A stretch of 64,000 nt of DNA from NCBI RefSeq assembly GCF_022811725.1, contig NZ_CP094527.1:1860001-1924000 (forward strand), given 5' to 3'. The number at the start of each line of letters is the position of its first letter. The stretch's first letter is position 1. The notes beneath the pieces were generated by a model. That model saw only the letters and a list, made by a program, of their open reading frames with translations, made no database searches and had not been told where the DNA came from. This DNA comes from Mucilaginibacter sp. SMC90. Its GTDB lineage: Bacteria; Bacteroidota; Bacteroidia; Sphingobacteriales; Sphingobacteriaceae. The translations under genes were made by a program, and so were the position numbers. Below, in pieces: positions 6,715 to 20,366 of this stretch.

Positions 6715-7835
6715 ATGGAATTAGCAGAACCTGTAGTATCAACACCAATATTAAAAACTAAACAACATTTCGAAATTTTAGATGGCCTTCGTGGTATTGC
6801 AGCCATTGCCGTTGTAATATTTCATTTTATGGAGTTTGTTGTGCCTGATTACAGCAAAAGTTTTATTGCTCATGCGTATCTCGCCGTCGACTTCTTTTTC
6901 TGTTTGTCGGGGTTTGTAATAGCTTATGCTTATGATAACAAACTGAAGGGCTTGGGTAATAAATCGTTTTTTAAATTGCGGCTCATTCGCCTGCATCCGT
7001 TGGTCGTTATCGGTTCGGTTATCGGCTTGCTTGCGTTTGTATTTGATCCGTTCAGTAACCTTTACGCTACCTATGGCGCAGGGCAAACTTTGCTTATGTT
7101 TTTGAGCTCATGCCTGCTTATCCCGTATCCTATCGTACATGAGCGCTATTTTAACCTGTTCCATCTCAATCCGCCAACATGGTCGTTGTTTTGGGAATAC
7201 GTTGCCAATATTGTTTATGCGCTGGTGCTGGTTAAACTTCGTAATAAAATGTTGTGGCTGCTAACCGCAATTGCTGCCGGGTTACTTGGTTACGAAGCTT
7301 TAAAGGCGGGTTACCTTGGGGTGGGCTGGGGAGGAGACAGTTTTGGCGGCGGTGCAATCCGTGTTTCCTTTTCGTTTTTAGCCGGAATCTTAGTGTTCCG
7401 TTCAAATTGGATAATTAAGTCGCGCCTGGGTTTTTTAGTTATTGGTCTGTTACTGTTAATTGCGTTTCTTGTACCTTTCTCTGATAAGGCAAATCATATA
7501 ACCGACCCGCTTATAGTGATCTTTTATTTCCCGTTTTTGGTAGCGTTAGGGGCGGGGGCGGGGTTGCATACCCGGTTTGCTAAACTTTGTAAGTTTTTGG
7601 GCGATATTTCATATCCGCTTTACGTTATTCATTATCCGTTTTTTTGTGGCTGTTTTTGAGCTACCTTGAAGCTAAAAAGCCTTCGATGGCTGAAATGATA
7701 ATCATGATCCCTGTTGGCGTGTTGTTACTAACCGCTTTAGCTTATGTAATTATGATTTATCTCGATCTTCCAATCCGTAACTATCTGAAAAATAAAATGC
7801 GGAAAGGGCGGGGGATTAGTAAAGTTAAAGCTTAG
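6715..7835 (+). pseudogene. Acyltransferase 3 family membrane protein, frameshifted
   Basis: The first frame (6715-7659) starts with a typical acyltransferase-3 beginning (ILDGLRGIAAIAVVIFHF, with the family histidine) and continues through about eight membrane segments to YPLYVIHYPF. It then runs out in CGCF and stops. The second frame (from 7644) continues exactly where the family does, WLFLSYLE to a last membrane segment and YLDLPIRNYL. The switch lies at a run of seven T (7639-7645); five or eight T would restore one frame of about 373 residues. Intact relatives transfer acyl groups to sugars or other cell-surface molecules. This may be a real pseudogene, slippage-based phase variation or a read error. 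Confidence 0.8.
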
Positions 7836-8171
7836 GCTGCTACGCCACTCTGGGCTGCCGGATGTTTATGTAAAATTACTGTTGCATGTTGATTTTTGGA
7901 TAAATTATGATGGTTTTTTTACTGATTGGGCAATAAAAACTAATTGGTTACGTTAATAGTTTTCCACAAAGCGCAGTATCATGCACCAAGATGTGCCGTT
8001 TTTCGATACGCTAAATTAATGTCTTTTGCGTTGATAATCAGTTGTTAAAGTATAATGTGTTGTTAAGAAAGTACCACTACAACAACACTACTTCAATTTA
8101 TTGTCGTGTTTTAGCTGTGTTAAATTAGAATTTACTTTTTACTTTTATCTCACCAATTATATTAAACTACA
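7836..8171. other. Intergenic stretch upstream of the sigma factor gene
   Basis: No credible gene or RNA. It is AT-rich and must hold the promoter of the sigma factor gene, but no clear TTTG/TAnnTTTG pair is visible. Confidence 0.5.
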
Positions 8172-8753
8172 GTGGGTAAGAGTATTAACAGCAGTCATAT
8201 CCAACAATTGATAGCGGGCGATGAAGCCGCTTTCGATTTGATTTATGAAGTGTACAGCAGCAAAGTTTACCGGCTGGCATTCCGGTTTCTGAAGGATGCA
8301 CAGCAGAGCGAGGAGATTGTGCAGGAGTGTTTTATAAACCTTTGGACAAGCCGCGAAAAATTGAATGCCTCAGGCGATATCTGGCTGTACCTTTACGTTA
8401 TCGCAAAACGCTTATCGTTGAATTCATTAAGGCAGGTGTTCCAATCGCGGGAGCTTTCAGATAAACTGGCTAACCACATCGCCACCGCTCATAATGATAC
8501 CGAAGAGGATTTGCTGGTTAGCGACCTGGAACAATTTACAGAACGGATAATTAATAAGCTTCCACGCCAGCAGCAGCTTATTTTTAGGTTGAGCAGGGTT
8601 GAACACCTTACTCACAAAGAAATTGCTGATCAGTTGCAGATTTCGCCCAATACGGTAAAAAATCATATGGTTGAGGCGCTGAAAACCCTCAAATCGCAAC
8701 TGCAGTATTCCGACCTTATTTTTATGCTTGCCTTATTCTTCTGGATCAATTAA
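8172..8753 (+). CDS. ECF RNA polymerase sigma factor (FecI-like)
   Basis: The 193-residue protein has sigma region 2 (about 22-90: YEVYSSKVYRLAFRFLK, EEIVQECFINLW) and region 4 (about 130-180: LPRQQQLIFRLSR, HKEIADQLQISPNTVKNHM). It ends in a short hydrophobic tail (LIFMLALFFWIN) common in this Bacteroidetes group. The start is GTG at 8172, forced by an in-frame TAA nine bases before it. Such factors are normally held by a FecR anti-sigma factor encoded directly downstream and drive transcription of a SusC/SusD operon. Here the next plus-strand gene is that FecR, but 4.8 kb away at 13521, with two minus-strand genes between. Confidence 0.92.
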   Translation: MGKSINSSHIQQLIAGDEAAFDLIYEVYSSKVYRLAFRFLKDAQQSEEIVQECFINLWTSREKLNASGDIWLYLYVIAKRLSLNSLRQVFQSRELSDKLANHIATAHNDTEEDLLVSDLEQFTERIINKLPRQQQLIFRLSRVEHLTHKEIADQLQISPNTVKNHMVEALKTLKSQLQYSDLIFMLALFFWIN

Positions 8754-8778
8754 AGGCGATCCTCTTTCCTAAACCTTT

Positions 8779-9579
8779 TCAATCAAGTCTGCTTACCCTG
8801 TAATTTAATGCCGCCGTTGTGCCGCCGGTTACATCGATGGTTACGCCTGTTATTTGACCTGCAAGGTCTGATGCCAGGAAAACCGCTGTGTTAGCGATAT
8901 CGGCCATTAGTGGAAGCTTTTTAAGCATAGTATCAGCTTCCATTTTTTTTAAGATGGGATCCATAATATCAGGCATGGTATCAATGGCATTTTTAAATAT
9001 CCGTGAATCGGGCGAGCCTCCCGAACGGATATTTACAACACGGATGCCGTAAGCGCCCAATTCAGACGCAAGTGTACGTGAAAAACTTTCAACCGCACTG
9101 CATGCTGGGCCAAAGCCGCCTGTATGCGGGTAACCGATACCGCCTGGCGTAGCAGTGAGTGACAAAATTACACCCGATTTTTGTTTCATCATTACCCTTG
9201 CGGCAGCAATAGCCGTCATGAAGCGGGTTTGCATGGTTAGGGTAATGGGTTTTACAAAATCTTCGGCTGATATTTCGGCAAGGGGAATGTTTTGCACTAC
9301 ATCAACACCAACGGCATTAAAGGAAATATCAACGGTTCCTGCATGATCTGTAATTTGCTGCAAATGCCCGTCGATTGCTGTTTCGTTAAATGCATCCACA
9401 ATAGCTATTTCGGCCCGGCCGCCTGCAACAATAATTTCATCAGCTACTTTTTTTATTGTTTCCTGATTAGGGCCGGTTAAAAATACCGTTGCACCGGCAG
9501 CAGACATTGCCTTTGCTACCGCGCCGCCCAATGAGCCTCCTGCTCCGTATATTACCGCATTTTTGTTTTGCAAAATCAT
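8779..9579 (-). CDS. SDR-fold oxidoreductase with non-canonical active site
   Basis: This 266-residue Rossmann protein of the short-chain dehydrogenase family has a cofactor loop YGAGGSLGGA at 11-20, NAVGV at 88-92 in place of the usual NNAG, and the C-terminal ITGVTIDVTGG. The catalytic YxxxK motif is missing: the aligned residues are F156-x3-C160 in GGFGPACSAVESF, although a serine (S140) stands at the expected place. A set of SDRs annotated as oxidoreductases has a similar GGF-type active-site segment, so this is probably a divergent subfamily rather than a dead copy. The gene is convergent with the sigma factor gene, 25 bases apart. The reaction is unknown. Confidence 0.85.
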   Translation of the reverse strand: MILQNKNAVIYGAGGSLGGAVAKAMSAAGATVFLTGPNQETIKKVADEIIVAGGRAEIAIVDAFNETAIDGHLQQITDHAGTVDISFNAVGVDVVQNIPLAEISAEDFVKPITLTMQTRFMTAIAAARVMMKQKSGVILSLTATPGGIGYPHTGGFGPACSAVESFSRTLASELGAYGIRVVNIRSGGSPDSRIFKNAIDTMPDIMDPILKKMEADTMLKKLPLMADIANTAVFLASDLAGQITGVTIDVTGGTTAALNYRVSRLD

Positions 9580-9750
9580 ATGCTTTTTTGACTAAAGATA
9601 ATATCTCAAATGCCAGATTACATAGCAAACATACTGGTAAATATTACTTTAGTTCACAGCTTAAAGGTGACAAGCAGAGAAGGAATGATCTGGAGGGTAT
9701 GGAACCAACCGGCTAAAACCAGTATATGCCGCGCAACCCGGAGATCATGA

Positions 9751-12700
9751 CTACTCGCTTCGTAAGCTTTTTACCGGATTGGCCAGAGCAACTTTAATGA
9801 TCTGAAAGCTGATGGTGATCAGCGCGATAAAAATGATCACACCAGCCGAAAGTGCAAACAGCCACCATTGCAGCGGTACACGGTAAGCAAAACTTTGCAG
9901 AAAGCCGTTAGTGGCATACCAGGCCAGCGGCATGGCAATGGCGATGGCTATAACGATCAGCACAATAAACTCGCGTGATAAAAGGATAAATAAGGTGTTT
10001 ACACCTGCGCCAAGCACCTTGCGGATACCGATCTCCTTAAACCTTTGTTCGGCGGAGAACATAACGAGGCCGAGTAGCCCGAGGCAGGAAATGAAGATGG
10101 CAAGTATCGCGAAGGTATCAGCCAGCCGGTTAATGATCTGGTCATTTTGGTATAAATGTGCATATAGCTGGTCTGTAAAGTAAATGACCGGCGGGAAAGC
10201 CGGGTTCAGCCGTTTGCTCAACTGCTGAATTTCTGCCAGCACGATTGGTGTTTTACCGGGTTGTATCCTGATCAATATTACACCACCCTTTTGGTTTTCG
10301 CCAGAGGCCAGCACCATTGGGCTTACGGTTTCATGGAGGGAGTGAAAATGAAAATCCTTGACAACGCCCACAATCATGCGCTTTTTGCCCAGCCAGGTAA
10401 ATGGCTGACCTACCGGATGCTTATATCCTGTAAGCTTAACAGCCGTTTCGTTCAGGATATAGCCCGAGGTATCTGCCGGATCATCAGCAGCAAACTCATG
10501 GCCGGACAGCAGCGTCAATTTCATCGTTTTGAAGTAATCATAACCGATAGCCGCATGGGTAAACAGCGTGTTCATCGTTTGATCATGACCGATCCAGTCT
10601 ACCGCCGCACTGCTGCCATAAATATCGACCGGTGCCATGTTGATGCGGCTGACTGCCTGTATGCCGGGCTGGTTTAACAGTTCATTTTTAAAGACCGCGT
10701 ATTTGGCGTCAAGTTCACCCTCGACTGGCAGATAGACCACGTTCTCGCGGCTATAGCCCAGGTCTTTCGACTCCATATAGCGCATTTGACGGGAAACGAT
10801 GACCGTGCTGGTAATCAGGAGGACAGCAAGTATAAACTGGAATACGACCAGTCCTTTACGCAGCAGTAAGGTGCCGGTATCCAGTTTGATGGTACTTTTT
10901 AATACCTTGACCGGTTTAAAAGCGGACAGGAACAAAGCAGGGTATAAGCCTGATAGCAGGCCGGTGACCACCGTGATACCCAATAGCTGCAACCAAAAGA
11001 GGGGCTGGCCGAAAGGTAGCCCGATCTGTTTCTGTACCAATCCATTAAACCAGGGCCGCGCCAGCATTAACAAGGGCAAAGCCAAGGCCACCGCCAACGC
11101 GGTCACGATCAGGGCTTCCCAAATAAACTGGCTGACAAGTGCAGGTCGCAAGGCACCTATCGCCTTGCGTACGCCGACTTCCTTCGCTCTTTTTATCGAC
11201 CTTGCCGTCATCAGGTTCATGAAATTGATACAGGCGATCAGCAGAATAAAAACGGCGATGAGGCTGAAAAGGCGCACATATCGGATACGACCACCATCGG
11301 GCTTGCCGTTTTGAATGTTGTTGTTTAAATAGGCATCGGCATAGGGTTGCAGCGCCAGGTCGGTGTAAGCGATAGCCGTTTTCCGGTTGATATGCCAGTA
11401 CAGGTCAAAGAAGCGGGCGATCTTGGCGTTTACGGCTTCTGCATTCGCCTGCTGTCGCAACATCACATAAGCGTTAGGCCCGTTATTGCCCATTTCTTTG
11501 GCCCAGGGATTATTCTCCAGGAAGGTGTCCCAGTTGAGCAAAAAATCAAAGCTTTGCGATACGTTCGGTGGCAGGTCGTCGAACACAGCGCTGACTTTGA
11601 AATTCTTCCGGTTCTGGTAGCGAATCATTTGGCCTATGGCCTGTTCAGGGCTACCGTAAAATATCCCGGCCATTTTTCTGGATATCGCAATAGATGATGG
11701 TGAATTCAGAGCGGTTTGTGCGGTACCGGCCAGCAAGCGGTAACTGAACATGTTAAAGAAATCTGCACCTGCTGAATTGCCGATCATTTTAACGACTTTA
11801 TCACCGGTCTGGAAAGTGCTCGTTTCAACAAAACCCATATTGGTGGCATATTGGATGTCCGGATAACTCCTTTTTAATTCATCGGCCAGGATGCCTGGCA
11901 TTTCATAACTGCCGGTTTCCGCCTTGTTATAAAAATCACTTTTGTACACTTTAAACAAACGTTCGCTACCTGCAAAGAAAGCATCCGTGCTGTACTCGTT
12001 CTGTACCCATAACAGGATCAAAAGGCTACAGGCCAGCCCGACAGCGAGCCCTGAAATATTAATGACACTTTGCGATTTATTCCTTAGTAAACCGCGCCAG
12101 GCGGTTTTGATATAATTCCTGATCATAAAATAGCGTTTGATTTCTGAACGCAATGATACCTGCTTAAGCCGCTGCGGAAGGCCCGGATTATAACCTGGGC
12201 GCTGTTTTTCCAACTCATTTTTGTATTCGGCGGCGCTTTTCCTGGTCACAGCTCTAAAAACCCGGTTAAAAGTTGTCTTAGAATTGAACCCCGATTCGTA
12301 GGCTATCCCCAGCAGGGTGAGCTGGTCATAAGCGGGCTGACGCATTTTCCGGGATACTTCCTGTACCCTCAATTCATTGATAAAATCGTTGAAGTTCTTT
12401 TTGAGTCCCAGATTGATGATGCGTGATAACTCATGTACCGGAACGGTCAGTTCGGCGGCCAGCGCTGGCAGGTTCAGTTCGGGGTCTTCATAAAGTCGTC
12501 GTTCCTTTACGGTTTGCTTCAGCCATCGGCCTTTTTCACGCAGGTCGTCCCGATTCCGATTTGGCTGCGGTGTAGCAATAACAGCGCCCGGCTTTACAAT
12601 CACCTGCGCTGCCATAACAACAAGTACAGCGGCGGAAGTTACCACGAAAGCCTCGCTAAACAACCATAACAAAACGCTAAAAGCAAACAAATACAAAAAC

Positions 12701-13131
12701 GTTTCCAGCCGCCGGAACGCAAAACGTGGCCTGTCCATTAATATGGGCTGCATGCGATTGTAAAATTGCTGTACTGCCCGGTGAGAAAGATATAGGTAAA
12801 CGAGGATAGAAACGGATACCAACCAGGCGGGCACCAGCGGGCTGATGAACACGACACCGAAATGAGCCCAGTCTTTGCTGCGGAAAAGCTGCTCGGGCCG
12901 CACTGTTTTGCGTGTAAAAAAATAGAGCAAGGGACCCAATGTCAGTGAAAGGTTTACTGATAACTGCGCCAAATGCAGGGCAACGACCACAAGGGCGGCG
13001 CTTAACCACAGGCCGGCAGCCGGCACTTGCTTTCTGGCAAATACTAACAATAAGGCCAGCGTAAGTGCGCTGACTATAGCCGCCAGGCCAAGCAGGTCAT
13101 AAACGCCGATATGAAATATGAAGGAATGCAA
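9751..13131 (-). CDS. Fusion of membrane AraC-type regulator and FtsX/MacB-like ABC permease
   Basis: One uninterrupted 1126-residue frame. Residues 1-180 hold several membrane helices of the kind that precede AraC domains in Bacteroidetes membrane regulators (LTLGPLLYFFTRK, HFGVVFISPLV). Residues 200-305 are an AraC helix-turn-helix (AELTVPVHELSRIIN; LLGIAYESGFNSKTTFNRVF). From M336 (codon 12126-12124) a complete permease follows: MIRNYIKTAWRGLLRNKS, a periplasmic MacB-type domain, an FtsX core (KEVGVRKAIGA), a second periplasmic domain and a second FtsX core (KEIGIRKVLGAG), ending in NPVKSLRSE. The permease part alone is 791 residues, the usual length of such stand-alone proteins, so M336 may also serve as an internal start. 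No ABC ATPase is encoded nearby. The gene looks richer in G+C than its surroundings and sits between a sigma factor and its FecR. Confidence 0.9.
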   Translation of the reverse strand: MHSFIFHIGVYDLLGLAAIVSALTLALLLVFARKQVPAAGLWLSAALVVVALHLAQLSVNLSLTLGPLLYFFTRKTVRPEQLFRSKDWAHFGVVFISPLVPAWLVSVSILVYLYLSHRAVQQFYNRMQPILMDRPRFAFRRLETFLYLFAFSVLLWLFSEAFVVTSAAVLVVMAAQVIVKPGAVIATPQPNRNRDDLREKGRWLKQTVKERRLYEDPELNLPALAAELTVPVHELSRIINLGLKKNFNDFINELRVQEVSRKMRQPAYDQLTLLGIAYESGFNSKTTFNRVFRAVTRKSAAEYKNELEKQRPGYNPGLPQRLKQVSLRSEIKRYFMIRNYIKTAWRGLLRNKSQSVINISGLAVGLACSLLILLWVQNEYSTDAFFAGSERLFKVYKSDFYNKAETGSYEMPGILADELKRSYPDIQYATNMGFVETSTFQTGDKVVKMIGNSAGADFFNMFSYRLLAGTAQTALNSPSSIAISRKMAGIFYGSPEQAIGQMIRYQNRKNFKVSAVFDDLPPNVSQSFDFLLNWDTFLENNPWAKEMGNNGPNAYVMLRQQANAEAVNAKIARFFDLYWHINRKTAIAYTDLALQPYADAYLNNNIQNGKPDGGRIRYVRLFSLIAVFILLIACINFMNLMTARSIKRAKEVGVRKAIGALRPALVSQFIWEALIVTALAVALALPLLMLARPWFNGLVQKQIGLPFGQPLFWLQLLGITVVTGLLSGLYPALFLSAFKPVKVLKSTIKLDTGTLLLRKGLVVFQFILAVLLITSTVIVSRQMRYMESKDLGYSRENVVYLPVEGELDAKYAVFKNELLNQPGIQAVSRINMAPVDIYGSSAAVDWIGHDQTMNTLFTHAAIGYDYFKTMKLTLLSGHEFAADDPADTSGYILNETAVKLTGYKHPVGQPFTWLGKKRMIVGVVKDFHFHSLHETVSPMVLASGENQKGGVILIRIQPGKTPIVLAEIQQLSKRLNPAFPPVIYFTDQLYAHLYQNDQIINRLADTFAILAIFISCLGLLGLVMFSAEQRFKEIGIRKVLGAGVNTLFILLSREFIVLIVIAIAIAMPLAWYATNGFLQSFAYRVPLQWWLFALSAGVIIFIALITISFQIIKVALANPVKSLRSE

Positions 13132-13520
13132 GTGCGTTTATAAGTCAATTTTTATTCCAAACCTATAAATAATTGACCGATAGTGAATTACTTTAATAAG
13201 AATTACAAACTGTAACAGAAGCGAACGCCTGTATGTACGGTTTTAGTCATTCCCGTCATTCGCCAAAACACTATTGAAAGGTGCAACACTATTTGGTTTC
13301 GATATAGCCTGCCGGGTTTGAGTTGCATTAACGAGCGTTGAATGACCAACGACGATCATCCAACCGCTGATTACACCATTATGATAGAAATAGTGCGCCA
13401 CCAGAAGAAGAAAAATACATTTTTTTTAAAATATTTCACATTCGGGTAGTCCTATGCTTTGAGTTGTGTGTTCTATACACAAATGCCCCTATCTGGGAGA
13501 TTTGTATATAAACCAAAAAC
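13132..13520. other. Divergent intergenic region between the fusion gene and fecR-like gene
   Basis: No gene or RNA is seen. It must carry both divergent promoters; TATGCTTTG near 13454 resembles a -7 element but has one extra base, so I do not call it. A run of A/T lies around 13410-13440. Confidence 0.5.
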
Positions 13521-14732
13521 ATGAATAACAAAAGGCTCAGGAGTTTACTTGAACAGTATTTTAACGATGCTATAAGCGATACAGATCGTACGGAGCTGCT
13601 CAGTTATCTGAACGACAATCCCGGCGAAGTATTTAGCAGTGTTGATGAAGAAATGCTGAACCTTGAAGGCGCTCCTGAGTTTGATAATGTCCGTGCACAA
13701 AAGGTACTTGCCGATATCAAGGCTGATTCACGATTTAAAGATGAGGCTATTGTTCCGCTGCCTGTTATCCGCAAAAGCAATATTATAAAATTATATGCCG
13801 GTTGGGTAAAGGTTGCAGCTGCTGTTTTAATTTTCGCGTCGGTAGGGTTTTACTTTGTGCACCGCCAAAAAATGGGGACAGCTAAAAACCAGGTTGCTGC
13901 CAATGTCTCTGCCAAAATTGTTCCGGGGAGTAATAAAGCTATACTTACGCTGGCTACCGGTAAAAGTATAGTATTAGATAGTGCTGCTAACGGCGCACTT
14001 GCCAATTCGGGAAAAAGCCAGGTAAATAAAGTGGGGGATGGCAAACTGGTTTACGATGTATTGCCAAATGCCACTCATGCAGGTGTTAATGCTGTTTTAT
14101 ACAATACACTCACTATCCCGCCGGGTGGCCAGTACCAGGTGGTGCTGCCTGATGGTACACAGGTATGGTTAAACTCATCATCGTCATTAAGCTATCCAAC
14201 CGAATTTGCCGGTAACAGCCGTACAGTAAAACTTACGGGTGAGGCTTACTTTGAAGTAGCAAAAAATAAAGACAAGCCTTTTTATGTAGAGATGAACAAC
14301 GTGCAGGTAAAAGTACTGGGTACGCATTTCAATATTTCGGCTTATGCCGATGATAATGATTTGACCACCACACTGCTTGAAGGCTCGGTGCAAATCAGCA
14401 AAAATGGTAGCCTGGCTTTATTGAAACCGGGCCAGCAGGCTGTGATTGGTAATAGCGCTAATGCCATTACGGTTTCAAAAGCACACATCAATGAGGCTAT
14501 GGCCTGGAAAAACGGTTACTTCATGTTTAATGATGATAACATCGTTGACATCATGAAAAAGGTATCGCGCTGGTATGATGCCGATGTTGAATACAAGGGC
14601 AATTTTGCTGATCAGCGTTTCGGCGGCATGTTTACCCGCTCAAAAAGTATAAATGACCTGCTGAAAAATCTTGAACAAATAGGTAATGTGCATTTTAAAA
14701 TTACAGGAAGGAGGATCACCGTTATGCAATAG
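13521..14732 (+). CDS. FecR family anti-sigma factor
   Basis: The 403-residue protein has a cytoplasmic N-terminal sigma-binding part (1-90), one membrane segment (about 95-113, VKVAAAVLIFASVGFYFV) and a periplasmic FecR domain (about 195-290: IPPGGQYQVVLPDGTQVWLN, LTGEAYFEVAKN, VLGTHFNISAY). A C-terminal DUF4974 domain follows (about 330-402: FMFNDDNIVDIMKKVSRWY), which contacts the STN domain of the SusC partner. It should hold the sigma factor of 8172 inactive until the SusC at 14892 signals substrate. The gene is 159 bases upstream of that SusC gene, on the same strand. Confidence 0.93.
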   Translation: MNNKRLRSLLEQYFNDAISDTDRTELLSYLNDNPGEVFSSVDEEMLNLEGAPEFDNVRAQKVLADIKADSRFKDEAIVPLPVIRKSNIIKLYAGWVKVAAAVLIFASVGFYFVHRQKMGTAKNQVAANVSAKIVPGSNKAILTLATGKSIVLDSAANGALANSGKSQVNKVGDGKLVYDVLPNATHAGVNAVLYNTLTIPPGGQYQVVLPDGTQVWLNSSSSLSYPTEFAGNSRTVKLTGEAYFEVAKNKDKPFYVEMNNVQVKVLGTHFNISAYADDNDLTTTLLEGSVQISKNGSLALLKPGQQAVIGNSANAITVSKAHINEAMAWKNGYFMFNDDNIVDIMKKVSRWYDADVEYKGNFADQRFGGMFTRSKSINDLLKNLEQIGNVHFKITGRRITVMQ

Positions 14733-14891
14733 ATCTACATTCCTCATTATCCCAACCAATTATCTATCAGCATAAAAAATAAAAGCCAGGAGCGTTTCGG
14801 ACCGCCCCTGACCTAAGCCATGTTATGGCAATGCCAGATAGTAAAACTAATTGCAGCGATTACAACCACTTATTAATAAACTGACATTCAA

Positions 14892-17800
14892 ATGTATAAA
14901 AATTTTACTGCATTTACTTGCGGCAAACATCGTGGGCGCCTATATAAACCTGTGCTTATTATGAAACTGACACTTATCTTGCTAACAGTTACCTTTTTAC
15001 AGGTGTCTGCCGCAACTTATGCACAGAAAGTTACTTTAAAGGTTAAACAAACAACTTTAAAAGAAGTTTTTGAACAGATCAGAAATCAAACAAATTATGA
15101 TTTCCTGTACAATTCTGACGATATTAAGTTAGCTAAACCTGTAACTGTTGATCTTACCAATGCATCCATAACCCAGGTTATGGATCAGTGTTTAAGCAAC
15201 CAGTCGTTGACTTACACTATTGATAACAAAACCATCCTCATCCGTAAAAAAACAGCGGCCGAGAGCAATGCTCCTAAAAAGATCGGCGGTAAAGTTATTG
15301 ATAGTAAAGGTTTGCCTTTACCTGGTGTAACTGTTAAACAGAAGGGCGCTGCTGCTGCCGCTATAACCGATTTAAATGGTAATTATACCATTAATGTAAC
15401 GGAGGCAAATGCTACCCTGGTTTTCACCTTTGTTGGCTTCAGATCAAAAGAAGTTGCTGTTAACGGCCGCTCGGAGGTGAATGTTACGCTTGAAGATGCG
15501 CCGCAAGATCTTAACGAGGTTGTTGTTGTGGCCTATGGCGTGCAAAAGAAAGAAACGGTAACCGGTTCTATATCTTCTATCGGCACTAAAGACCTGGTAC
15601 AGTCGCCGGTTGCTAACCTGAGCAATGCACTTGCCGGTCGTTTATCTGGCTTAACCGTAACACAAACCAGCGGTAAACCGGGGTCGGACGGGGCAACACT
15701 GTACGTACGCGGTGTTGGTACTTATACCGGCCAAACAGCCCCGTTGATCATGGTTGATGGTATTGCCCGCGATAGCTATAATGATATTGACCCTAACGAG
15801 GTTGAATCTATCAGTATCCTTAAGGATGCTTCGGCTACAGCCGTGTATGGTGTGCGTGGTGCAAACGGTGTAATCCTGATCACCACCAAGCGTGGTAAAG
15901 AGGGAGCGCCAAAAGTCAGTGCCACGTTCCAAACGGCTATTTCGCAGTTTTCGAGCATGCCTAACTTTGTTAACTCTTATCAATATGCTACGTTGCTCAA
16001 TGAGCAGAGCTACGAAACCTACTGGATCCAGCATTCAAGAGATGCCGACGTGCATACCTGGAGCGACTTTGTGACCAAACGTGATGCCAACTGGGTCAAG
16101 GATGCTACTATATATTATTCGCCCGAGGATCTGAAATATTATCAAAACGCACATACACCAACTATTAACGGGCAAAAAAATCCTTATTATGACCCTTACG
16201 GCCACCCCGATCAGGACTGGAAAAAACAGATCTTCAATAAGTTTGCCCCTCAAACACAGGTAAATGCCAACATTACCGGCGGTACTAAGGCTACCAAATA
16301 CTTTGTTTCGTTAGGTTACCTGGCACAGGGAGGCTTGTTCAATACAGATTACATGCCTTTTTCAGATGAGATGCAGTTTAAAAAGAAGCGTTATAACCTG
16401 CGCTCGAATCTGGATTTTGACGTAAACAGCGATTTCAGGGTATCGGTAGATGTATCTACCCAATATGTAACCATTACCGGTATGGATAATGACGGTTATA
16501 CCTGGGAAAAACGTATTTTATGGTCATCTCCGCTTGGTTCGCCGGGTTTGATAAATGGCAAGTTCGTAGTGCCTTTCAGCAACCAGAACGATCAGCTTAA
16601 CCCGTTATACGCAATTGCAAACAGCAATAACTATAATATTACCACTAACAGTACTTTAAACTCGGCCATCAAGTTAACCTATAAACTTGATGATATTACG
16701 CCCGGTTTATCGATAAATGCACGTGGCGCGTATGACAGCTATTTCCAAAGCCGTACAGGTGGTAAATATACCCCCTTGCTTTATGGTTTAAGGCCAAACC
16801 CCAATGGTGATAAACTTGATCCCATCCTGGTTCAGCTAACCAATGATGTGGCCCCTGCCCGCTGGACAGACTTTTACACCGAAAAATGGCGTAAAGTATA
16901 TGGTGAGTTCTCACTCAACTATAACCGCGTTTTCGGGAAAAAGCATACTGTTACCGGTTTGATCCTGGCCAATGCCGAGAAAAAATATGATCCCAAATTG
17001 TTGTATGATCTTCCGCACGCCTATGAAGGTGTATCCGGCAGGGTAACTTATAACTACGGGGACCGTTACCTGGCCGAGTATGATATGGGTTATAACGGTT
17101 CAGAAAACTTTCCGGAAGGTAAAAGGTTTGGTTTCCTGCCGGCTTATTCATTAGGATGGATTGCCAGCAATGAATCCTTTTTTCCTAAACAGGATTATAT
17201 CACTTATTTAAAAGTGCGTGGTTCGTTAGGTAAAGTTGGTAACGATGGTATCAATATTCCTAATTCAGATGTAGCTGCCCGTTACCTTTACCTGCCCGAT
17301 ACCTGGCAATACGTACAAGGTTATAATGCCGGTGGTGGTTATACATTTGGTACCCTGAATGATCGTAATACCATACAGGGAGCCCGCGAAAATGTTTTGG
17401 GTAACCCTAATGTAACCTGGGAAACAGCCACCAAATCAAACATTGGTTTGGAAACACACCTGCTTAACGACCGTCTTTCGCTTACTTATGACCACTACAA
17501 TGAGCATCGCAGAAACATCCTTTCATACAAGGGCAGTGTTCCCGGTATAGTGCAGGCAACCTTGCCGCCTTATAACCTGGGCGAGGTTAAAAACTGGGGA
17601 GATGAAATTGAGTTGAGCTATAATAGTGTTCCGGGTAAGTTTACCTGGTGGATTAAAGGCAATGCTTCAACAAACCACAATAAAATCATTTTCCAGGACG
17701 AGGCAATTGCTCCGGGCTTAGAGTACCAGGCATCAACCGGTCGGCCTATTAGCCAGGGTTCATACCTGCAGGCCGACGGGCTTTACACATCATGGTCGCA

Positions 17801-18491
17801 GCTTTATAAAATTGATGGAAGCGGTAACCCGATATTATCACAGCCCGTGTTGGCCGTTGGTAAGGATGGAAAACCATATACCAATGCTGCGGGCAACCCG
17901 GTATACCAAAAAGACCTGGGTTTTGCGGGCGCTCCCGTACAGCCCGGCGAGGTTAGGTTAAAAGACATTAATGGCGATGGTGTAGTAAACGAAAAAGATT
18001 ACATGCGTTCGGGCAAAACCAGCCTGCCAACCTTAAGCTACGGCTTTTCTTTCGGCTTCAATACCCATGGTTTTGATTTCTCGGCTTTATTACAAGGGCA
18101 ATCAGGTGTGGCTAAATATGCCATGCAGGAGCTTCACTTCAACAAACAACAATCATTGTTTGATGTGGATTTGAACAGGTTTACCCAAGAGCGGTATGAC
18201 AACGGCGAACGCATTGATTTCCCTATTGCTGCTTACAACCAGGATGCTGCTTACAATACCTTCTTTTTAAAGAGTACAGCTTTTGTAAGGTTAAAAAACA
18301 TGGAAATAGGCTATACGCTGAAACCAGAATTTCTGAAAAAGATAGGCGTTCGCACGGCCCGCTTTTATATCAACGGATATAACCTGTATACATGGTCGCC
18401 AAATAAGATCTGGGGCGATCCTGAAAACCTGGGTTATATCGGTTATCCGCTTACCCGCACCTATAACGTAGGCGTTAATGTTAATTTTTAA
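14892..18491 (+). CDS. SusC/RagA TonB-linked outer membrane receptor with STN signalling domain
   Basis: The 1199-residue protein has a long Bacteroidetes-type leader (signal core MKLTLILLTVTFLQVSAATYAQ). It is followed by an STN domain (about 50-118: TLKEVFEQIRNQTNYDFLYN ends in NKTILIRKK), a carboxypeptidase-D-like beta-sandwich (about 132-200), the SusC box LNEVVVVAYG, a TonB plug (about 225-335) and a 22-strand-type barrel closing in YNVGVNVNF. It should import a ligand captured with the SusD lipoprotein encoded 15 bases downstream. The STN domain makes it a transducer that signals to FecR. The substrate is unknown, as no glycosidase, peptidase or sulfatase is encoded in the locus. Confidence 0.95.
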   Translation: MYKNFTAFTCGKHRGRLYKPVLIMKLTLILLTVTFLQVSAATYAQKVTLKVKQTTLKEVFEQIRNQTNYDFLYNSDDIKLAKPVTVDLTNASITQVMDQCLSNQSLTYTIDNKTILIRKKTAAESNAPKKIGGKVIDSKGLPLPGVTVKQKGAAAAAITDLNGNYTINVTEANATLVFTFVGFRSKEVAVNGRSEVNVTLEDAPQDLNEVVVVAYGVQKKETVTGSISSIGTKDLVQSPVANLSNALAGRLSGLTVTQTSGKPGSDGATLYVRGVGTYTGQTAPLIMVDGIARDSYNDIDPNEVESISILKDASATAVYGVRGANGVILITTKRGKEGAPKVSATFQTAISQFSSMPNFVNSYQYATLLNEQSYETYWIQHSRDADVHTWSDFVTKRDANWVKDATIYYSPEDLKYYQNAHTPTINGQKNPYYDPYGHPDQDWKKQIFNKFAPQTQVNANITGGTKATKYFVSLGYLAQGGLFNTDYMPFSDEMQFKKKRYNLRSNLDFDVNSDFRVSVDVSTQYVTITGMDNDGYTWEKRILWSSPLGSPGLINGKFVVPFSNQNDQLNPLYAIANSNNYNITTNSTLNSAIKLTYKLDDITPGLSINARGAYDSYFQSRTGGKYTPLLYGLRPNPNGDKLDPILVQLTNDVAPARWTDFYTEKWRKVYGEFSLNYNRVFGKKHTVTGLILANAEKKYDPKLLYDLPHAYEGVSGRVTYNYGDRYLAEYDMGYNGSENFPEGKRFGFLPAYSLGWIASNESFFPKQDYITYLKVRGSLGKVGNDGINIPNSDVAARYLYLPDTWQYVQGYNAGGGYTFGTLNDRNTIQGARENVLGNPNVTWETATKSNIGLETHLLNDRLSLTYDHYNEHRRNILSYKGSVPGIVQATLPPYNLGEVKNWGDEIELSYNSVPGKFTWWIKGNASTNHNKIIFQDEAIAPGLEYQASTGRPISQGSYLQADGLYTSWSQLYKIDGSGNPILSQPVLAVGKDGKPYTNAAGNPVYQKDLGFAGAPVQPGEVRLKDINGDGVVNEKDYMRSGKTSLPTLSYGFSFGFNTHGFDFSALLQGQSGVAKYAMQELHFNKQQSLFDVDLNRFTQERYDNGERIDFPIAAYNQDAAYNTFFLKSTAFVRLKNMEIGYTLKPEFLKKIGVRTARFYINGYNLYTWSPNKIWGDPENLGYIGYPLTRTYNVGVNVNF

Positions 18492-18506
18492 TCATAAAAT
18501 ATAGCA

Positions 18507-20366
18507 ATGATGAAAAGAACGAATATTATTTTACTGCTTGTGGCTTGTTTCATAGGTGGTATGCTTTCAACAAGCTGTAAAAAAACTTTTCTTGAAAAGC
18601 CTAAAGGCGGTGCGGTAACGGTTGATACCATTTTTGATTCGCGCAACCAGGCTCAATATGCGGTGGCCCAAATGTATATGTTATGTATCAGGGGATATTT
18701 TCCTCAAACATATGATGGCTGCCGCCCCGAAGCATTGACCGATCAGCTTTATATCATCCATCCGGCTTATGACTGGGCATCAAATACAGTTAACACTGGC
18801 TCATACATAACCGGCAACATGAGCGCCGATAATAACTGCGATTATGGTTTTGGCCAGGATAATGGTGCTGGTTTTTACTGGCACTACAAAGGCATAAGAC
18901 AAGCCAACCTGGTGTTGAAAAACATTGATAAAGTGCTTGATGCCGATAATGCTTGGAAAACCGATGTTAAAGGCCAGGCTTTATTTTGTCGCGCTATGCA
19001 GCATTATGAATTATTCAGGTATTATGGTGGTGTGCCTATTGTAACCAAGCCGCTTGATGGTACTGTGAAAATTGCAATCCCGCGCAGCTCGGTACAATCA
19101 GTAGTTGATAGCGTGGTTAAATGGTGCGATCAGGCTGCATCAATGTTGCCGGCTACGCGTCCAAGTGCAGATTTTGGCCGCATTACCAAATTAGCAGCAA
19201 TGGCTTTAAAGGCAAGGATCTTATTATATGCTGCAAGCCCGCTTTACAATACTCCCGCAGGAATGAAAGGCGAAGTATCCGGAGCAAGGTTTAATGACAC
19301 CCGTGATACCGTATTGGCTTATGCCAGTTACGACAAGGAGCGCTGGAACAAGGCGGCCAAGGCAGCTAAAGATGTAATTGATAACGCTGCTGCAGGCGGT
19401 GTTTCCTTATTAAATACCGGTAAACCCGAAACAACCGGCGAAACTTATGCAACCTTAGGCGATTATGAATCGGTATGGAACGTGTTTGCCAACCAGGAGC
19501 TGATATTGGTGAATACCTCAAACCAGGTTCCGGGAGCTGGCGGCGGCTGGGGCGATGGATCGGCATGGGGCCAGTACCTGTCGTCAAAATTGCGTTTGGC
19601 ACAGTGGGGTGTTAAAAACAATGTACCTGTTGAGTTTATACAGCAATATGAAAAACGCGACGGTACTAAATGGACCATACCCGCAAACGGTGCCGATTTA
19701 CCTGCTGATGTTGAAGGGTGGAAGCTTGACCCCCGCTTTTACCAAACCATTGCTTATGATGGTAAATACTACAGCAGCCAGCGTGGTATCCTCGCTTACT
19801 ACAAAAAAGGTGATTACAGTACAGATGGCAACCTGGCCAGCAGTGATGCCGGCGTGGATGGTTACGCTACCGAAACCTACAAATTTGTTGCAAGGGTTGA
19901 TAACATGACAGATAACCACTTTGCATGGCCTGTGTTTCGCCTTGCTGAGTTTTATCTGGGTTATGCCGAAGCACTTAATGAGTACCAGGGCCCAAGTGCC
20001 GAAGCCTCAAATTATCTGAACAAGATAAGGCAGCGTGCCGGGATGCCTGATAAAAATCCGGCCACTATTGATGCGTTCAGAGATGCGGTTCAAAATGAGG
20101 AAACTATTGAGTTTGCTTATGAGGGACACCGCTATAACGATCTGAACCGATGGTTAAAAGCCAAAACTGTATTGAATACGGTGCTGCACGGTATTCAAAC
20201 CACCGCCAGGAATGTTGGCGGAGTGCTAAAACGCACATGGACAACTGTCCCATTTGTTACAAGGGTATTCCCTGCCAAATATTACTATGTGCCATTTCCA
20301 AGTACCGAGATCAGTTTAAGGTATTTAGGCAACAGTAGCTGGGACGGACAAAATCCAGGTTGGTAA
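18507..20366 (+). CDS. RagB/SusD family surface lipoprotein
   Basis: The 619-residue protein has a lipoprotein signal (GGMLSTSC, Cys24) and the SusD fold: N-terminal TPR-like helices (FCRAMQHYELFRYYGGVPIV), AMALKARILLYAASPLYN, and the C-terminal signature (EFYLGYAEALNEYQGPSAEA, NKIRQRAGMP, EETIEFAYEGHRYNDLNRW). It ends in the typical W-x-G-Q-N-P-G-W. It forms the lid of the SusC barrel encoded 15 bases upstream. The protein is longer than most SusD proteins, with inserts around 380-460. Confidence 0.95.
   Translation: MMKRTNIILLLVACFIGGMLSTSCKKTFLEKPKGGAVTVDTIFDSRNQAQYAVAQMYMLCIRGYFPQTYDGCRPEALTDQLYIIHPAYDWASNTVNTGSYITGNMSADNNCDYGFGQDNGAGFYWHYKGIRQANLVLKNIDKVLDADNAWKTDVKGQALFCRAMQHYELFRYYGGVPIVTKPLDGTVKIAIPRSSVQSVVDSVVKWCDQAASMLPATRPSADFGRITKLAAMALKARILLYAASPLYNTPAGMKGEVSGARFNDTRDTVLAYASYDKERWNKAAKAAKDVIDNAAAGGVSLLNTGKPETTGETYATLGDYESVWNVFANQELILVNTSNQVPGAGGGWGDGSAWGQYLSSKLRLAQWGVKNNVPVEFIQQYEKRDGTKWTIPANGADLPADVEGWKLDPRFYQTIAYDGKYYSSQRGILAYYKKGDYSTDGNLASSDAGVDGYATETYKFVARVDNMTDNHFAWPVFRLAEFYLGYAEALNEYQGPSAEASNYLNKIRQRAGMPDKNPATIDAFRDAVQNEETIEFAYEGHRYNDLNRWLKAKTVLNTVLHGIQTTARNVGGVLKRTWTTVPFVTRVFPAKYYYVPFPSTEISLRYLGNSSWDGQNPGW

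Follow-up and report, generated by a model that had tools for sequence, protein, structure and literature searches.

The junction between an ECF sigma factor gene and fecR as a probable attachment site for Tn7-like transposons and passenger cassettes in Mucilaginibacter

The known targets of Tn7-like transposons are one conserved gene (glmS, comM) or tRNAs, or are set by a guide RNA. Mobile insertion cassettes and passenger-carrying miniature inverted-repeat transposable elements (MITEs) consist of inverted ends around passenger genes without a transposase, and the gene cassette arrays of integrons stack small cassettes at one site. To our knowledge, no Tn7-like family has been described whose attachment site is the junction between a gene for an extracytoplasmic function (ECF) sigma factor and fecR, and our searches of open-access text found no Tn7-like element at such a place. 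Here we describe one of these junctions in Mucilaginibacter sp. SMC90, in a stretch of 64,000 nucleotides of contig NZ_CP094527.1 (the window), where a short-chain dehydrogenase/reductase (SDR) gene and a gene for a fusion of an AraC-type helix-turn-helix (HTH) region with an ADOP permease lie between sigma and fecR. Our comparisons make it highly likely that the sigma/fecR junction is the attachment site of a genus family of Tn7-like transposons and passenger-only cassettes.

This family shares with Tn7 and its relatives (TnsABC plus TnsD or TniQ; Tn7 at glmS, Tn6022 at comM) a TnsA, a DDE-type TnsB, an AAA+ protein of the TnsC type, a TniQ, TGT/ACA ends with arrays of TnsB-type repeats, a 5-bp duplication, and insertion beside a conserved gene that is not destroyed. 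It differs from them in its site, of which there are dozens of paralogous copies per genome, in occurring in both orientations, in its many passenger-only cassettes, and in the single TniQ-type selector (414 aa) that was seen. Fixed orientation, a trait of Tn7 itself that this family lacks, was not used to define the wider family. In contrast to mobile insertion cassettes and MITEs, the cassettes of this genus have ends of Tn7 type that contain internal repeats, and a related element in the genus is complete. One pair of cassettes side by side (G157 C19) recalls integron arrays, whereas no integrase or attC site was seen here and each cassette has two Tn7-type ends. As to the host genes, the locus resembles E. 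coli fecIR/fecA in having a FecI-type sigma factor and FecR beside a TonB-dependent receptor; E. coli fecI and fecR form one transcript from a promoter before fecI (PMC9249621), while here a conserved promoter-like element lies between sigma and fecR.

Ends, target sites and transposition machinery

Comparison of cassette borders gave a recurrent end, consisting of TGT, six bases, TCTCTTTTRRTGGCNCACTWTTT and a second similar repeat, and the ends of the family have the form TGT...ACA with tandem repeats resembling TnsB sites. With at most one mismatch, the end pattern had 17 matches at 12 places in 10 of 149 genomes of the genus (denoted by G numbers; the window genome is G000), and the reversed control had 0. 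Ten of the 12 places lie between an ECF sigma gene and fecR (G072 C12, G081, G091, G094, G116 C2, G116 C5, G131, G157 C2, G157 C19 and G029). The pattern had been derived from three of the 12 (G093, G116 C2 and G157 C2), and eight of the nine places not used for it are at sigma/fecR junctions. An exact 5-bp duplication flanks 7 of 13 end pairs, those of G081 and G094 among them, versus 3 of 156 mis-paired controls. At one junction (G116b, on G116 C2), inverted ends bound the insert and TTATT occurs on both sides of it, whereas G026, whose homologous site is empty, has only one copy.

The distance from the fecR-side end to the fecR start, taken for 13 ends, is 77 to 105 bp, with a mean of 94 (the values for G094 and G157 C19 were calculated by hand, and G091 was excluded because two ABC transporter genes, over 3,417 bp, lie between element and fecR). 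Relative to the sigma stop codon, the element end falls between -19 and +37 bp in six cases. The spread is narrower from the fecR start than from the sigma stop, which hints at recognition of the fecR side. The junction insertions leave the target genes intact, as at an attachment site.

The machinery is carried by a 7.6-kb element in G081, which encodes TniQ (PF06527, E 1.4e-15; 414 aa), TniB/TnsC (PF05621, E 5.2e-67), TnsB, TnsA, an aminotransferase and a DDE-type transposase gene. Its TnsB matches Mu-transpos_C (E 4.1e-08) and the TnsB of Tn6677 (E 1.8e-48), and the acidic catalytic positions align by eye; its TnsA (207 aa) matches PF08722 (E 2.8e-15) and reaches E 9.3e-23 and 80.8 bits against an NCBIfam TnsA-like subfamily model, under the cut-off of 110. 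A 9.9-kb element in G094 has the same type of set, with a gene of group II intron type within the TniB region and a split TnsA. The G081 TnsB has one relative in genome contigs, from Mucilaginibacter pineti 47C3B, which agrees with the G094 element. No transposase set was found at the other mapped places, which carry passengers only. According to one report, larger selectors, usually of more than 400 aa, suggest direct target binding (PMC10293859), and another describes safe sites chosen by Tn7-like elements (PMC8649781). The G081 family would fit both accounts.

This raises the possibility, which we consider fairly probable, that a Tn7-like lineage of Mucilaginibacter uses a whole class of regulatory junctions as a distributed attachment site, reading the sigma 3' end or the A/T-rich stretch before the fecR promoter and filling dozens of paralogous gaps per genome with stacked small cassettes while the host signalling pairs remain unharmed. 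TniQ would guide insertion by recognizing either the 3' end of sigma or a feature at the fecR promoter; of the two, we favor the A/T-rich stretch before the promoter because the spacing is tighter on the fecR side.

Two places have unusual arrangements. In G157 C19 (L221 3592-7378), two cassettes with 5 bp between them separate fecR from sigma, and GGAGG is exactly duplicated at the first. In G131 (L220 6883-7859), an end-like pair faces inward around the sigma gene itself, with no matching 5-bp duplication.

The window insert as a probable cassette remnant

The window contains one match to the end pattern within three mismatches, the minus-strand core listed in Table 1 (chance expectation, 0.00 in 100 shuffles). 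A 55-position matrix trained on 16 ends from other loci scores this end at 17.7 bits, with the next best place in the window at -5.3; when the ends of the G093 fusion cassette are left out of the training, the values are 13.2 and -5.8. The end stops 101 bp before fecR; from 13420 onward the sequence is that of the host, and the promoter-like element follows after 27 bp.

The fusion gene and about 280 bp upstream of it are 84% identical in DNA, over about 3.7 kb, to sequences in G157 and G093, where both ends are present. The G157 cassette has its own exact duplication, CCTGT, and the opposite orientation, so the insertions in G000 and G157 are separate events. At fourfold sites, the fusion genes of G000 and G157 are 0.644 identical, as compared with 0.548 for the SDR gene, 0.556 for fecR and 0.574 for sigma between the sisters G000 and G013; for rpoB the order is reversed (0.676 for G000/G157 versus 0.864 for G000/G013). 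These values are best explained by horizontal transfer of the fusion, although codon bias may inflate fourfold-site identity. The initial annotation had also described the fusion gene as richer in G+C than its surroundings, and it is: its G+C content (GC) is 0.491 and that of third codon positions (GC3) is 0.571, the mean GC3 of the 26 window open reading frames (ORFs) of at least 250 aa being 0.441 (standard deviation, 0.043). This supports a foreign composition, although part of the enrichment is usual for the permease family, six paralogues elsewhere in the window genome having GC3 values of 0.40 to 0.55. The enrichment does not extend over the whole interval 8779-13131, since the SDR gene is not enriched (GC 0.461, GC3 0.382).

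Similarity to G157 extends as far as the stop codon of the fusion (9749-9751), and similarity to G093 as far as 9710. Because G157 continues for about 180 bp beyond the stop up to its cassette end, the window copy appears to have lost its far end, which probably went together with the AraC, epimerase and permease genes that the sisters still have. The window copy has neither two ends nor a transposase of its own, and an ORF and domain scan of the window found no transposase gene between 8753 and 13521. On the evidence of its G157 homologue with both ends, through which it is classed, we interpret the window copy as a cassette remnant. The cassette would have been moved in trans by machinery of the TnsABC-TniQ type, the other end would then have been deleted along with older passengers, and the SDR gene would be a leftover of an earlier occupation.

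Occupied and empty junctions in the genus

For comparison we searched 60 relatives and then the 149 genomes of the genus and used 38 homologous loci selected for having both a sigma and a FecR homologue, adjacent or nearly so. Because some belong to paralogous subfamilies, with SusC identities of about 80% or more or of 29 to 44%, the loci are homologous without all being strict orthologues. Sigma matches without an adjacent fecR match at the thresholds used (G088, G117 C3 and G031 C1:694329) and fecR matches without such a sigma (a G136 fragment, G151, G061, G017 C15 and G005) were excluded. The sigma homologues of the other 37 loci are 51 to 96% identical to that of the window. The fecR at 13521 is the nearest fecR to the window sigma gene, and the two are kept as one pair, adjacent or nearly so, in 38 of 38 loci, all chosen for having both. 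The gap is shorter than 300 bp in 23 of the loci and 1.0 to 8.3 kb in 15. The split arrangement is thus not kept throughout the genus, and the proposal in the initial annotation that genes had been inserted between former neighbors holds.

The cargo of the 15 occupied loci is diverse. The window locus has the SDR and fusion genes; G013, G031 and G085 have an SDR, AraC, an NAD-dependent epimerase and one or two ADOP permeases; and G017 has an SDR, AraC, the NAD-dependent epimerase and one permease plus a phosphotransferase and a MarR gene. G067 has AraC, epimerase and a PIN-type pair, G027 the PIN pair alone, G128 a chromate transporter group, G155 and G087 a permease, G074 an SDR and an AAA/DUF4143 gene, G157 AraC, another SDR and the fusion, G026a and G116a an MFS transporter, and G116b an esterase. 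In a phylogeny of concatenated sigma and FecR proteins, eight changes between empty and occupied are required, and well-supported branches force all eight. These need not be eight gains, because G155 and G087 carry one cargo in common while their sisters G022 and G083 are empty. With the matrix, a fecR-side end is found in 6 of the 15 occupied versus 0 of the 23 empty loci, all six at 98 to 105 bp; a sigma-side end is found in G116b and, weakly, in G074.

Several observations weigh against a transposon origin of the junction inserts. No end is recognizable at either border of 8 of the 15 occupied junctions (G085, G013, G031, G017, G067, G027, G155 and G087), which could have arisen otherwise, and 6 of the 13 end pairs have no exact duplication. 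The window keeps a single cassette end, which departs from the pattern at three positions; no ends can be recognized for the SDR part; and the pattern search found no other end within one mismatch in the window genome. The element of G093 C25 begins just past a sigma gene on a contig without fecR, and G033 (L219 7056-10686), the sole family element away from a sigma/fecR junction, has ends with no matching duplication. Orientation varies: the TniQ end faces sigma in G081 and fecR in G094, and the fusion is inverted in G000 relative to G157. Finally, only one complete element, in G081, and one damaged one, in G094, were found.

The eight end-less junctions would be explained if the junction were a tolerant spot that gathers genes by homologous or illegitimate recombination, with no dedicated transposon for the window insert and an end-like sequence there by chance. 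Between close species, the conservation of the flanking genes would suffice for recombination, and the common cargo of G155 and G087 beside empty sisters would fit as well. We regard this explanation as improbable because sites of this kind have ends, tandem repeats and 5-bp duplications as well as a complete transposase set, because the window end scores far above all else in the 64 kb, and because the fusion has opposite orientations in G000 and G157. Homologous recombination as the main cause was dropped as first choice after the ends, duplications and transposase set had been found.

The initial annotation treated the two adjacent minus-strand genes as a single module; however, the SDR gene stands at this place in four sister species, without the fusion, which occurs at this locus only in the window genome. 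In G074 and G025, too, relatives of the SDR gene occupy a sigma/fecR gap. The two genes therefore have different histories and appear to be separate layers, the SDR gene being the putative older occupant.

The same annotation expected the insertion to separate sigma and anti-sigma transcription. The roughly 75 bp that precede fecR are kept in nearly all loci of the 38-row alignment: TAGTCCT, 14 bases, GTGTTC, and then TATAAACCA before the start. Three rows (G120, G087b and G083b) deviate from the two boxes, and some have one extra base between them. An exact search for TAGTCCT-N14-GTGTTC in the 149 genomes gave 33 matches (20 for the reversed pattern), of which 28 lie within 150 bp upstream of one of 37 listed fecR genes; the 8.13-Mb window genome has one, that before the window fecR. 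The element looks like an ECF-type promoter for fecR-susC-susD. Every insertion ends upstream of it, and contiguous relatives carry it too, so that a separate fecR promoter very probably existed before insertions occurred, and an insertion-caused loss of fecR transcription is unlikely. A recent two-gene island that came between the partners and altered the balance of sigma and anti-sigma would account for the adjacent minus-strand genes and the higher G+C of the fusion; we consider it very improbable, because the SDR gene is found without the fusion in four sisters and the promoter-like element is older than the insertion. The single island was rejected on the sister-species evidence. Least probable of all is that passengers are retained because the local ECF sigma regulates them, the hotspot reflecting selection for regulation more than targeted insertion: cargo kinds such as AraC with NAD-dependent epimerase, SDR and permeases do recur at different junctions, but passengers bring their own upstream regions and point either way, and the single exact TAGTCCT-N14-GTGTTC match of G000 is not in front of the window passengers.

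Targeted insertion at the junction, in contrast, would make it a safe harbor: with the insertion site bounded by the sigma stop codon on one side and the separate promoter of fecR on the other, sigma, fecR and susCD would keep working, and the site could be reused repeatedly. If this is correct, a family homing to multicopy regulatory junctions would represent a new kind of protein-guided safe site. It would account for the separated sigma and fecR genes of some of these bacteria. A further prediction is transcription of fecR from a promoter separate from that of sigma. The small TniQ-type selector and compact cassettes could be useful for studies of target choice and for genome engineering in Bacteroidota.

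Layout of the locus and neighboring sequences

The features are listed in Table 1. The four genes of the initial annotation are where it placed them, and its estimate of about 4.8 kb between sigma and fecR agrees with the gap of 4,767 bp. Sigma and FecR have the domains of a FecI/FecR pair, and the susC product downstream carries an STN signalling domain.

Table 1 Features of the sigma/fecR junction in the window
Feature	Positions	Strand	Evidence or remark
ECF sigma factor gene (TonB-transducer type), left border of occupied junction	8172-8753	+	TIGR02985, E 3.6e-42
SDR passenger gene, convergent to sigma, putative older occupant	8779-9579	-	No transposon end recognizable at borders
AraC-type HTH/ADOP permease fusion, probable passenger of Tn7-like cassette	9751-13131	-	HTH_18 and FtsX/MacB_PCD
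Cassette end of Tn7-like type, with TGT at the terminus, 13419 as outermost base, and a pair of repeats resembling TnsB sites (core 13388-13410)	13365-13419	-	
A/T tract, apparently ancestral, kept between cassette end and fecR promoter-like element	13420-13446	+	
Promoter-like element TAGTCCT-N14-GTGTTC in front of fecR, conserved	13447-13473	+	
fecR leader, conserved TATAAACCA immediately 5' of start codon	13478-13520	+	
fecR, right border of occupied junction	13521-14732	+	FecR and FecR_C domains
susC/susD pair after fecR, flanking context	14892-20366	+	

The window genome is a single contig with 41 FecR genes and 70 sigma matches, of which 65 were used (five short or weak ones were excluded). 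A TIGR02985-type sigma gene lies within 6 kb of 38 of the 41 FecR genes; the other three, whose nearest sigma is more than 9 kb away, were excluded from the pair counts. The view that sigma is normally directly followed by fecR holds for most pairs, sigma being upstream on the same strand in 31 of these 38, and fails for the 7 divergent ones. Only three same-strand pairs in the genome have a gap of about 1 kb or more, and the window pair is the widest. Many other fecR genes of this genome (L135-L174) have upstream an A/T tract and then promoter-like boxes that vary among them, which looks as though every sigma had a promoter of its own in front of its fecR.

The SDR protein and its close homologues have GFGPACSAVE where YxxxK, the catalytic motif of classical SDRs, is expected, and this departure is conserved. 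AraC-permease fusions form a large family in the genus, with fusion protein matches in 58 of 60 genomes, many of them full-length. The fecR leader contains a small CCC/GGG inverted repeat, and RNAalifold gave no consensus fold of the leader on the 38-row alignment.

Upstream of sigma, an acyltransferase gene (6715-7659) encodes 314 aa in the window versus 364 to 365 aa in four sister species, with similarity ending at residue 309, and may be truncated. Between it and sigma, the interval 7920-8171 contains a CCACTACAACAACACTACTTC-like stretch, a possible operator, that is kept in close relatives and reversed in G022. In the gap between fecR and susC (14733-14891), where Rfam had no match (a tRNA is its sole match in the window), an inverted-repeat pair, ATTATCTG...CAGATAAT around CCAGGAGCG...CGCCCCTGG, is strongly conserved in most of the loci compared and is a possible leader or attenuator of susC.

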